A DNA stretch of 64,000 nt, taken from NCBI GenBank assembly GCA_002710685.1, contig PALD01000049.1, forward strand, positions 186,001 through 250,000, in the 5' to 3' direction. Of the stretch, positions 38,374 to 42,752 are shown in pieces. A model generated the notes under the pieces. The model did no database searches. It was not told where the DNA came from and saw nothing but the letters and a program-made list of their open reading frames with translations. Made by a program: the position numbers and the translations under genes. This DNA comes from Cytophagaceae bacterium (GTDB lineage Bacteria > Bacteroidota > Bacteroidia > Flavobacteriales > Flavobacteriaceae). Position 1 is the stretch's first letter. Each line of letters opens with the position of its first letter.

Positions 38374-38381
38374 CAAAACTA
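38374..38381 (-). promoter_or_regulatory. Candidate -7 box of the glycosylase gene (leaderless)
   Basis: TAGTTTTG on the minus strand, four bases before the ATG at 38369, with no -33 TTG at the usual distance. Confidence 0.4.
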
Positions 38382-39388: not shown

Positions 39389-39664
39389 GGATTTTTGGAT
39401 TTTGGTTAACCCAGATAAGATACATAGAAATCCCAGATAATCTAGTATTTGTTATACATGAATGCGTTAGGGCTAGGCAAAGTCAAGGATTTTAGTATCT
39501 TAGTGGTCTCCCCTGATAATTTACCGCCCCTATAATGTGTATTGACGAATGCTGTTATCCCGATGAGAATATTGGGACAATAGGATTAAATGGATTGATA
39601 TAACGAGTTGTGGTGCATTCCAGAAAAATGATAATTTGATTAAGTTGGAAAATAAAAATTAATA
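39389..39664. other. Left border of the accessory island
   Basis: No gene seen. It contains TAACGAGTTGTGGTGC at 39601-39616, whose GTTGTGGTG is the exact reverse complement of CACCACAAC at 40677-40685, on the far side of the next two genes. The G+C content falls after this point. Confidence 0.5.
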
Positions 39665-40054
39665 ATGACTACAAATTTTAAGAATATTAAAATAAGTACA
39701 TCTGAAATCAGAGCGAGTTTCAATCAAAAAGAAATTGAAGGAACATTAAGTTTTATTAACCATATGAATAACCAGGGATATAGCTATTCTATACATAGTT
39801 TTATTTCTAACAACATTTCAAAATTTGCAAATGATGGTTTTCTAGCTATGAATTCAGAGAATCCATCTGTCGGTGTTTTGTTTGTCAAAACCATTGTTTC
39901 ACGAAAATTTTTAAGAAAGAAAATTCGATATAGAATGTATATTATCCCTTATGCGGATATGGATTCTATTCATTCAAATTATAAAGTATACAAACAGTAT
40001 TTTCAATCTTTTGAAGATTTTTCAGGATATAGAGATAACAGTAAATTAAATTGA
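39665..40054 (+). CDS. Hypothetical protein (first island gene)
   Basis: A 129-residue soluble-looking protein, not recognised. It has a mixed pattern: IKISTSEIRASFNQKEIEGTL at the start, then strand-like stretches (FVKTIVSRKFLRKKIRYRMYIIP) and no membrane helix. The base composition is clearly AT-richer than the neighbours and the codon use shifts with it. It lies inside the inverted GTTGTGGTG/CACCACAAC borders together with the next gene, which starts three bases after its stop, so both form one unit. Origin by lateral transfer is likely. Confidence 0.65.
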   Translation: MTTNFKNIKISTSEIRASFNQKEIEGTLSFINHMNNQGYSYSIHSFISNNISKFANDGFLAMNSENPSVGVLFVKTIVSRKFLRKKIRYRMYIIPYADMDSIHSNYKVYKQYFQSFEDFSGYRDNSKLN

Positions 40055-40057
40055 AAA

Positions 40058-40669
40058 ATGGGTGCTGTGTTTAACAAAATATGGGGTATTCTTGGGGTGA
40101 TAGTTTCAGCTTCATCAATTTTTAGCTTGTTAGAACGTAGATTTGACATCACATTAGCCGTTAGCTTGTCCGAAATGCTTTCATATTACAGAGACTTAAC
40201 CTCTCCAATATTTCAGTTTCTTTACAAACCTATCTATTGGATTTTTCCATCAATGCGAATACCTAATTGGGTTTTGGATGCTCAAATTTTATCCATAGTT
40301 TCAACTGGCATCTACATCAAAGCTAGAAGTACTTTAAGGGTCAATGGTGAACAGGTACATTTTAAAACAATATGGAGCAAGATACATATGATTTTAATTG
40401 TAGGTTTTAGTCTGTTTGGATTAATTATGCTTCCATTCATTTTAATCGCAATGATAATGTTACCTGTTGGTTTTATTACTCATATTAAGCATCATTACAA
40501 AGTATCCAAATTCTATAAAGGAGGAAAAAAATTTAATTTTTATAACACACTAGGAACCATTGTTATTGCAGGAGGGGATTTAGCTTGGGTAACTATAATG
40601 GGTATATTTGGCTATATGACTTTATTGACATTGGCAATATTTTACTTATTTAATACTATTTTGACTTAG
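40058..40669 (+). CDS. Hypothetical polytopic membrane protein (second island gene)
   Basis: A 203-residue protein with about four membrane helices: near residues 5-25, 105-135 (LIVGFSLFGLIMLPFILIAMIML, a long or double span) and 165-200 (IVIAGGDLAWVTIMGIFGYMTLLTLAIFYLF). A loop with RVNGEQVHFKTIWSK precedes the second hydrophobic block. No family is recognised. It follows the soluble protein after three bases and the pair may work together at the membrane. AT-rich composition and the flanking motifs mark it as acquired. Confidence 0.65.
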   Translation: MGAVFNKIWGILGVIVSASSIFSLLERRFDITLAVSLSEMLSYYRDLTSPIFQFLYKPIYWIFPSMRIPNWVLDAQILSIVSTGIYIKARSTLRVNGEQVHFKTIWSKIHMILIVGFSLFGLIMLPFILIAMIMLPVGFITHIKHHYKVSKFYKGGKKFNFYNTLGTIVIAGGDLAWVTIMGIFGYMTLLTLAIFYLFNTILT

Positions 40670-40676
40670 AAGAACA

Positions 40677-40808
40677 CACCACAACACGGTATTTAAAAAT
40701 TAGCGGATTAAGCGCTTGGCTCAAAATTGATTTTACAGATTTAAAGTCGTTGTAAAACTGAAAGGCAAGAGAGAAATCCCGCTATTTTTCATATACTAAC
40801 CGTTAGGT
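40677..40808. repeat. Cassette-border (attC-like) hairpin element
   Basis: Starts with CACCACAAC (40677-40685) directly after the second island gene and ends with GTTAGGT (40802-40808), which fits the GTTRRRY end of integron recombination sites. Between them, AAAAATTAGCGGATT (40695-40709) can pair with AAATCCCGCTATTTTT (40774-40789), leaving two small bulges: a long imperfect stem as in attC sites. No integrase gene is in the window, so an active integron is not shown. Confidence 0.5.
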
Positions 40809-40831
40809 TTCATTTGAACAACACTCAATTT

Positions 40832-42241
40832 ATGAATAAGAAAAAAGACATACTTTCAATAGGTTTCGAGATTCCAGGACATTCAGAGAATCATATCCCT
40901 TTTGGCTCAAGTAAATCTTTTATGGATGCGGACATAATTATTATTTCGCCAGAAGAAATCTATCCTAGTGGAGATTGGATACGTTTTTCGTCAGGTGGAG
41001 GATGTTATGATACTGGAACATCTAATAAATATTCCAAGAACTCTAGTAGTTTAAAAAAAGAAGTTTCTGATTCCCTAAAACTAGGAAAAACAGTTTTTAT
41101 ATTTCTCGCAGGAAAAAAAGAATTTTTATTAGCAACTAATGTAACACACCCAAGAAAAGGCGAAAACCTGTACTCCACCATAACTAAAACTAATTATGAT
41201 TTTTTACCAATAAAAATTGGAAATATTACTTCAGCATCTGGTAAGCGTGTAATATTTAACGGAAATCAAGTATTGAGTGAATTTAATAGAAATTTCAGTG
41301 GATACTTGAAATATGAATCTTACATAGAGAATTCTGAAAATGCCACGATTACCTATCACGGAAAAGATAAATCAAAAATTCTAGGTGCAATTATAAAGGT
41401 AGATTCAGGTCACCTTGTGATTTTGCCTCAAATACATTATGAATATAATGCCTTTGTAGAATATGACAAAAAGACTAACAAGAAACTATGGAATGATAAG
41501 GCCATAAAATTTGGAAATAAACTATCTGATGTCTTAAAAGGTATTGATACGCAGTTATCTTCAAACAATGAAAAAACACCACCACCAAAATGGTCACTTG
41601 ATGAAATTTACTCGACGAAAAAGTCCTTAGGTATTGAAAATCAAATCAAAAACAGTTTAGCTAAAATAGAAGAAGTCAAAAAAAAGATTGAAAAATTTAA
41701 TCAACAACTAGAGTCCGAGAATAAACTGAAAGATTTGCTATTTGAACAAGGTAAACCTTTAGAGAATGCTGTGACTAAAGCTCTTGATATTCTCGGATAT
41801 AAAGCTGAAAATTACAACGATGGAGAGTTAGAACTAGACCATGTGATAGAAAGTCCTGAAAAAATCAGGTATATCGGAGAATGCGAAGGAAAAGACACAA
41901 AGGACATAAATATCACCAAATTTCGACAATTATTAGAATCATTAAATGCTGATTTTGCAAGAGAAGATGTAGAAGAAAAAGCATATGGTATTTTGTTTGG
42001 TAATCCACAAAGACTTTTAGAACCTTCGAAAAGAATTTTAGATTTTACAAAAAAGTGCAAAACAGGAGCGGAACGAGAAAAAATTGCTCTTGTTAAGACC
42101 ACAGATTTATTTGTTGTAGCAAACTTTTTACAGCAAAATAAAAATGAAAGATTTAAGAAGGATTGTAGAAAAGCAATTTCGGATGGACTTGGCAAAATCG
42201 TTAATTTTCCATCGTTACCAAATAAGAAAAACGACATCTAA
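40832..42241 (+). CDS. Protein with C-terminal PD-(D/E)XK nuclease-like domain (island)
   Basis: About 469 residues in three parts. The N-terminal ~240 residues form an alpha/beta region (DADIIIISPEEIYPSGDWIR, LKLGKTVFIFLAGKKEFLLA, GHLVILPQIHYEYN). Residues ~255-305 are a Lys/Glu-rich coiled coil. The last ~160 residues resemble the PD-(D/E)XK nuclease fold: an early helix with PLENAVTKALDILGYKAE, Asp336 in ELELDHVI, and ECEGK with Glu352 and Lys354 (D-x15-E-x-K). This is the core of restriction-type nucleases; the sensor-coil-nuclease layout would fit a defence protein, which is inference. A TTG at 40814 is an alternative start. The gene ends inside ATCTAAC, the R''-like motif. Confidence 0.7.
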   Translation: MNKKKDILSIGFEIPGHSENHIPFGSSKSFMDADIIIISPEEIYPSGDWIRFSSGGGCYDTGTSNKYSKNSSSLKKEVSDSLKLGKTVFIFLAGKKEFLLATNVTHPRKGENLYSTITKTNYDFLPIKIGNITSASGKRVIFNGNQVLSEFNRNFSGYLKYESYIENSENATITYHGKDKSKILGAIIKVDSGHLVILPQIHYEYNAFVEYDKKTNKKLWNDKAIKFGNKLSDVLKGIDTQLSSNNEKTPPPKWSLDEIYSTKKSLGIENQIKNSLAKIEEVKKKIEKFNQQLESENKLKDLLFEQGKPLENAVTKALDILGYKAENYNDGELELDHVIESPEKIRYIGECEGKDTKDINITKFRQLLESLNADFAREDVEEKAYGILFGNPQRLLEPSKRILDFTKKCKTGAEREKIALVKTTDLFVVANFLQQNKNERFKKDCRKAISDGLGKIVNFPSLPNKKNDI

Positions 42242-42315
42242 CAAACAACTAAGTGAAAACCAAAAGCATTTAACTCAATTTAGCCACATGATTTTAATAA
42301 TACATCAGAGCACCT

Positions 42316-42329
42316 TTGGCGAAAGCCAA
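42316..42329. repeat. Dispersed palindrome, TTGGC type
   Basis: TTGGC-GAAA-GCCAA between the nuclease-like gene and the broken membrane gene; first such palindrome after the island. Confidence 0.5.
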
Positions 42330-42344
42330 TTTTAAATAGTATTT

Positions 42345-42752
42345 ATGAGAATTAGATATATCATTATTGCATATATAGCCATAGGCTTGGTTCTTTCTAT
42401 GGTCATCGGGTTTGAATATGGTAGCGATTACGATGACTTATTACCTACCTACTACGCCAGTCCGTTTATATTTAAGCAAAACTCGCTGGCCAGTTCTATG
42501 GAGTACTTTTATAGTATTTCAGGTCTGGCCCTAAATAGCATTATTTGGGGTGTGTGTTAGTTCTTTATTGATAGGTTAATTAAGGTCAAGAGTAGGGGCA
42601 AGGCATTTAAAAATATATACTATGTGGCGGTGGCTTTATTGATACTGTATTCCTCTTATAATATCATAGCAAGTATACTAACACTGGGAAGTGGTTTTGG
42701 CGAAGGCCAAAATTACTGGTATTGGGGAAATGAATTTAGATTGTGGAGCTAA
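42345..42752 (+). pseudogene. Small membrane protein gene with premature TAG
   Basis: The frame opens at ATG 42345 (MRIRYIIIAYIAIGLVLSMV, a membrane helix), meets an in-frame TAG at 42558-42560 after 71 codons, and then stays open to TAA at 42750-42752. The continuation encodes a second hydrophobic helix (IYYVAVALLILYSSYNIIA) and a sensible tail (GSGFGEGQNYWYWGNEF, ending LWS), so the two halves are one protein of about 135 residues interrupted by a nonsense codon. A dispersed palindrome in the second half (42695) is also in frame. Either the gene is a recent pseudogene, or the first 71 residues are made alone. The intact protein is not recognised. Confidence 0.7.
42695..42712. repeat. Dispersed palindrome, TTTTGGC type
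   Basis: TTTTGGC-GAAG-GCCAAAA, perfect 7-bp arms, inside the broken membrane gene (GFGEGQN). Confidence 0.6.

Follow-up and report, generated by a model that had tools for sequence, protein, structure and literature searches.

A very probable remnant of a Bacteroidota-type chromosomal integron in a Flavobacteriaceae genome

Integrons collect genes as cassettes, which move as circles when an integrase exchanges strands at the G|TT core of attC, a site that is recognized as a folded single strand. In the sedentary chromosomal integrons and the clusters of attC sites lacking integron-integrases (CALINs) of, for example, Vibrio and Xanthomonas, the integrase is IntI and the cassettes stand in tandem behind an attI site. 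For Bacteroidetes, the available passages of the IntegronFinder 2.0 paper mention only In0 elements from earlier work and, as a later find, a single complete integron (Salinibacter ruber), and they describe the scarcity of integrons in certain large clades as intriguing (PMC9024848). The phylum is among those listed with integrons in the accessible portions of several papers (PMC9024848, PMC8618304, PMC9668308, PMC2426708, PMC8352920, PMC8138268), and the attC models of one of these, as far as its available text goes, do not include Bacteroidota (PMC8352920). Here we analyse a low-GC island at positions 39607–42242 of a 64,000-nucleotide stretch (the window) of contig PALD01000049.1 from a member of the Flavobacteriaceae (assembly GCA_002710685.1). 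This island is very probably what is left of a Bacteroidota-type chromosomal integron, with an attI site, two cassettes and one complete attC-like site; all but the final codons of the integrase gene would have been lost by deletion and the last attC by decay. Intact relatives carry a Xer-like recombinase that probably acts on folded sites.

A sequence-only reading had proposed the island as a candidate acquired system with borders like those of integron cassettes. The motifs on which it relied lie where it placed them: two small genes are enclosed by GTTGTGGTG (39607–39615) and its exact reverse complement CACCACAAC (40677–40685), and a nuclease-like gene by GTTAGGT (40802–40808) and ATCTAAC (42236–42242). 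The island is also AT-rich as described, with a GC content of 0.306 vs 0.452 in the remaining window, and it is free of the palindromes present outside it; four patterns of our own choosing occur 2, 6, 11, and 15 times in the window and not once in the island. The proposed fit of the ends to GTTRRRY/RYYYAAC is only approximate, as GTTGTGG deviates from it and CCACAAC is not RYYYAAC. The cassette-type nature of the borders is upheld and exceeds chance, because the first and last nine bases of cassette 1 (39607–40808, plus strand, like the other integron parts and the three genes below) are complementary at 9/9 positions, because the site that ends it matches a covariance model, and because the DNA similarity of cassette 2 to another genome is bounded by GTT and AAC. 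What has to be revised is the unit, as two independent cassettes at an attI are found rather than one acquired system.

The attC-like site of cassette 1 (40677–40808) is made up of R'' CACCACAAC, a paired stem and R' GTTAGGT. It was found with a covariance model, R1, built from sites of 12 genomes that do not include the window's own; sites outside 119–135 bases were dropped and 63 non-redundant ones were kept of 195. In the 64-kb window, searched to E 10, R1 has this one match (40.6 bits, E = 1.7e-7). A full-length alignment places the site in a subtype also present in four other genomes (G349, G481, G455, and G320), and a genome of the same genus, G306, matches it twice at 71% (window 40683–40819 and 40683–40804); the two G306 matches (C1:3574161–3574298 and 3566668–3566790) are about 7 kb apart. 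The terminal stem of the sites has 12 pairs, eight of which have changes on both sides. Stem cells changed on both sides number 71, compared with 12.4 in shuffles, and 96.3% of stem cells are paired vs 84.7% in shuffled and 20–47% in slid versions, the structure having an advantage over the slid versions as it was derived from the same alignment. The structural case rests on this covariation, since folding of the isolated window site as single-stranded DNA gives a weak result (z −1.83 on the plus strand and −0.55 on the minus strand). At the Rfam gathering score no family falls on the sites of three array loci, where only tRNA and Flavo-1 were found. String searches had seemed negative until the covariance model replaced them: the exact 3' motif occurs once in the genome of the window, with up to two mismatches it is found at eight places vs 31 for the reversed control, and the outcome was similar for two further strings in the window.

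Cassette 2 (40802–42242) has a body running from GTTAGGTTTC to GACATCTAAC and holds the nuclease-like gene. The closest relative of this gene, encoding a protein 82% identical, is found in G109, a genome of another genus of the same family, where it is flanked by GTTGGGTGTC and GACACCTAAC. The DNA similarity between the two begins at GTT and ends at AAC. At the right border only half a site is present, as the attC of cassette 2 remained undetected with R1 even with the filters switched off. Because the shared unit stops at AAC, cassette 2 seems to have reached the window without its attC.

The left border had likewise been recognized as a cassette-like end, while its being an attI site had escaped notice. 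Positions 39552–39609 align to the integrase end and attI of G305, a genome of the same genus, with a score of 48; the highest score in 3000 dinucleotide shuffles was 33 and the best elsewhere in the window 29. In related integrons a conserved attI lies behind the integrase stop codon, and a multiple alignment of the window with nine other integrons has ATATAA and AGTT invariant in 10/10 rows. The case for attI rests on the longer G305 alignment because the short 14-base motif, taken by itself, does not reach significance in the window, with 0.46 matches expected at one mismatch and matches in 39/100 shuffles. The left border is an attI site (39567–39609, ending in ...TGATATAACGA|GTT) behind the final codons (LLSR and stop, 39552–39566) of a deleted integrase gene. 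Cassette 1 is still seated in attI, and the integrase gene is otherwise gone. Integrase genes with internal stop codons were seen in three genomes of the genus (G296, G303, and G301), which suggests that loss of the integrase is frequent in this genus.

In related genomes the same sites form arrays of tandem units, dozens of cassettes long, each unit having a gene and a site of about 120–135 bases. In 187 cassettes the seven bases that follow GTT agree with the reverse complement of those preceding AAC at 5.34/7 positions on average, compared with 2.62 when partners are shuffled (maximum over 1000 shuffles, 2.97). Among 143 cassettes of 250–2500 bases, bodies have a median length of 772 bases; the longest open reading frame (ORF) covers a median of 87% of the body and runs along the array in 130/143. 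A pattern taken from behind the AAC in G109 recurs with at most one mismatch in 65/199 genomes of the family; it has 26 copies in G349 (reversed control 0) and a few in each of the others, where some controls are nonzero. On one contig of G349 (C14; L125–L127, L144, and L145) a cassette with the end AAAGTGGCTAAC is present nine times in a single array. Repeated cassettes are also held by Vibrio integrons. An ordinary genomic island or a transposon with short terminal inverted repeats could be imagined from the resemblance of GTTGTGGTG...CACCACAAC to such repeats. The repeat varies between cassettes, however, and yet is complementary within each, the family search of the island proteins found no transposase family, and the left border is an attI, so that we give this explanation next to no weight.

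Upstream of the arrays is a gene for a tyrosine recombinase, about 300–400 aa long and usually with an extra N-terminal domain. Four integrons of the same genus (G305, G306, G296, and G303) have such an integrase with sites downstream of it. A shorter recombinase without the N-terminal domain also precedes an array in G281. The linkage was also seen starting from the protein: in an integrase-only search of the named genome collection, the best 80 of 580 loci contained 50 R1 matches, in 14 loci that are all from Bacteroidota; all 50 matches are on the strand of the integrase and 48 are downstream of it. Eight loci exceed 60 bits, namely those of Lutibacter (L183), Mesonia (L188), Zunongwangia mangrovi (L190), Algibacter onchidii (L191), Flavobacteriaceae S0862 (L195), Arcticiflavibacter luteus (L199), Winogradskyella ursingii (L204), and Seonamhaeicola aphaedonensis (L214). 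The loci from other phyla among these best 80, the only place where R1 met other phyla, had no match.

Much of the anatomy described above is shared with IntI integrons, i.e., cassettes in tandem, attI, attC-like sites whose stem is paired, the G|TT core, a cassette start complementary to the inverse core and sites that are alike within a genome. It could therefore be argued that the arrays are canonical integrons or CALINs with an IntI-type integrase that current tools overlook, the more so as three array integrases match TIGR02249 at 213, 199, and 197 bits and as the insertion typical of IntI, although essential for integron function, is incompletely conserved in an integron-like subgroup according to the available part of PMC8138268. 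These matches are broken into two stretches and stay below the cut-off of 265 bits, which is exceeded by no protein in the 199 genomes of the family, own genome included, whereas 8/8 IntI checked reach 372–490 bits. The catalytic residues are conserved in the array integrases, but the K-to-H spacing is 63–65 residues in all 35 related proteins in which it could be measured (14 are encoded at loci that have sites), vs 106–111 in 13 IntI; the array integrases lack the insertion of about 42 residues of canonical IntI. In a tree of 72 proteins the 13 IntI are set apart by a branch with 100/100 support that excludes the array integrases; IntI and Xer labels were given from the K-to-H spacing, TIGR02249 confirming 8/13 IntI and the other five IntI and ten Xer being labelled by spacing alone. 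The 23 array integrases lie beyond one branch of the same tree, together with 18 unlabelled rows; the support of this branch (91/87) does not reach the starred level. Unlike IntI integrons, the arrays have their integrase pointing in the same direction as the cassettes, a site core of GTTR followed by loosely constrained bases, and complementarity that often extends over 9–10 bases. The integrase of these arrays differs in type from IntI, and an overlooked canonical integron is an improbable explanation.

The nearest folds and spacing to the array integrases are those of simple tyrosine recombinases of the XerA/XerC type. In a structure search XerA ranked best (Z 23.0, rmsd 9.5; Z 21.4, rmsd 14.8), above IntI (Z 18.8, rmsd 3.8 over 251 residues); the spacing is 69–72 in ten Xer proteins and 62–65 in some archaeal XerA-like proteins, and the profile NF040815 gives the array integrases 210–227 bits (cut-off 220). 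This likeness would be expected of Xer/dif modules resembling pdif, mobilized by the Xer proteins of the host. The sites speak against such modules, as dif sites are short while those of the arrays span about 120–135 bases with a covarying stem, and so does a dedicated recombinase that adjoins the array together with attI; Xer/dif modules are thus even harder to credit than an overlooked IntI. Unlike XerA/XerC, the array integrases are linked to attI and cassette arrays and most of them have the extra N-terminal domain. The order of elements in this domain is beta-beta-alpha-beta-beta-alpha-beta (model mean pLDDT 86.7). Weak profile similarity, far from certain, links it to DUF5710 in 6/28 members (best 7.6e-5) and to the HARP domain (PF07443) of SMARCAL1 in 1/28 (0.0013). 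The top match of its profile against the PDB was 4o66 (E = 0.069), and HARP was absent from the VIA-align structure list, a list that did not cover the N-terminal domain.

Sites of this kind are widespread. With at most 16 candidates scored per genome, R1 has at least one match at E ≤ 1e-3 in 175/199 Flavobacteriaceae genomes, and at E ≤ 1e-4, with at most eight candidates scored, in 88/395 Bacteroidota genomes, 24 from the same family and 64 from outside it. The spread is uneven; in one genus of the family (g2) 17 listed genomes are without a match and six have one. The genome of the window has 15 matches at E ≤ 3.3e-4 on nine contigs, so that further cassettes, which the sequence-only reading had expected along with an intI gene, are indicated by 14 other sites, and the intI gene by no protein above the model cut-off. 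The rule of complementary ends is obeyed in 3/4 intervals on contigs C28 and C32 and fails in the sole interval on C37 (3/5 overall). The genes of the island are not a common possession of the genus, as they have no DNA match in its 12 other genomes, where only the attC-like site is matched, in G306. The block to the left of the island (to about window position 38377) is present in 11/12 of these genomes and the block to the right (from about 44618) in 9/12, and the region between them is specific to the genome of the window. A clean empty site was readable in none of the nine relatives with both blocks because the blocks lie on different contigs (seven genomes) or more than 370 kb apart (two genomes).

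In the mechanism that we favour, the Xer-like tyrosine recombinase encoded just upstream of the cassettes of intact relatives, and in the same direction, most likely recombines attI and attC. The attC would probably act as a folded strand with its terminal stem paired and exchange taking place at G|TT; cassettes would therefore leave and enter as circles, and the first bases of a cassette would be complementary to the inverse core of the attC that belongs to it. In agreement with this, 12/16 integrons have, no more than 155 bases from the integrase stop, a cassette start that fits the inverse core of the site detected first at 5–6/6 bases. Several observations weigh against this explanation of the island and its relatives. 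The last-mentioned test had no shuffle control, and 4/16 integrons miss the rule. The number of pair types in the stem is no higher than in shuffles (132/500 as high). Among the 14 loci with sites six have weak matches only, of 25–37 bits (L187, L192, L196, L197, L205, and L213), and 66 of the best 80 of 580 integrase loci have no site match, many of them from Bacteroidota and several on short contigs. From 14 integrases picked, many for their nearness to sites, that of G438 points away from the sites, G384 and G322 have no sites in the stretch fetched, and for G331 no long ORF was recovered. Of 12 relatives tried at the left border only G305 scores well above background, the other 11 scoring 24–32 with a background maximum of 32. 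Cassette 2 has no attC in the window (42236–42260), whereas its G109 counterpart has a full one (L011 1369–1502, 113 bits). An intact integrase with the N-terminal domain was not seen in the genome of the window, whose closest relative of the integrase is a protein of 293 aa encoded close to one end of contig C79, where the 12 kb read contain no site, and the stated contamination of the assembly is 8.79%. Finally, what we observed are the anatomy of the sites, the complementary ends, the covariation, attI and the linkage of integrase and array, and not recombination; that the integrase recombines attI and attC, and which strand is used, we infer from established integron biology, and for the role of the N-terminal domain only a guess can be offered.

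None of the three genes of the island belongs to a family above cut-off in Pfam, PADLOC, or NCBIfam. Those of cassette 1 encode proteins of 129 aa (39665–40054) and 203 aa (40058–40669); the latter has hydrophobic segments by our reading and no relative in a scan of the genome contigs. The nuclease-like gene (40832–42241, 469 aa) has relatives in 5/296 genomes of the order, own genome counted. D336, E350, E352, and K354 (E350-C-E352-G-K354) are invariant across five such sequences, which we read as a motif of the PD-(D/E)xK kind. More distant relatives, 32.7% identical and annotated as hypothetical, are found on seven Enterobacter plasmids (e.g., NZ_CP103495.1 94220–95614), and none was found in viral contigs. 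A fold predicted from the single sequence had a pLDDT of 35 and was discarded. A role of the gene in defence, or as a selfish element, is guesswork. Some cassette proteins of related arrays match defence models, and a defence role is therefore possible, no more. In a sample of 100 of the 125 distinct cassette proteins with a length of 80 aa or more, with PADLOC used without curated cut-offs, the first 25 of 35 families listed include DrmC-like proteins (three), a Pycsar-type cyclase (two), AbiGi (one), and several PDC models; DUF6090 was matched by 7/100 (first 25 of 48 families listed). Just to the right of the island, a small membrane-type ORF (42345–42752, read by eye) looks like a pseudogene because it has an in-frame TAG (42558–42560) with the frame open beyond it to 42752. 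Palindromes of the TTGGC...GCCAA type are dispersed outside the island, at 42316, 42697, 42883, 43618, and elsewhere.

In the open-licence literature, the only literature searched, no paper was found on integrons of this type in Bacteroidota or Flavobacteriaceae or on tyrosine recombinases with a HARP domain, which leaves their absence from print unproved. We lean slightly towards the view that Bacteroidota own a widespread integron class of their own, with an integrase that evolved from a Xer-like recombinase independently of IntI and reads a folded attC without the IntI insertion, perhaps through a HARP/DUF5710-like domain that senses hairpins or junctions of single and double strand. Integrons would then have arisen twice, or the class would be a very old sister branch. 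The leaning is no stronger because the insertion is reportedly incompletely conserved even in known integron-like recombinases. If true, this would open to experiment the mechanistic question of how a folded attC can be read by an integrase that lacks the insertion, and the mobile genes of Bacteroidota would form a large reservoir that is still unread, part of it defence-like.

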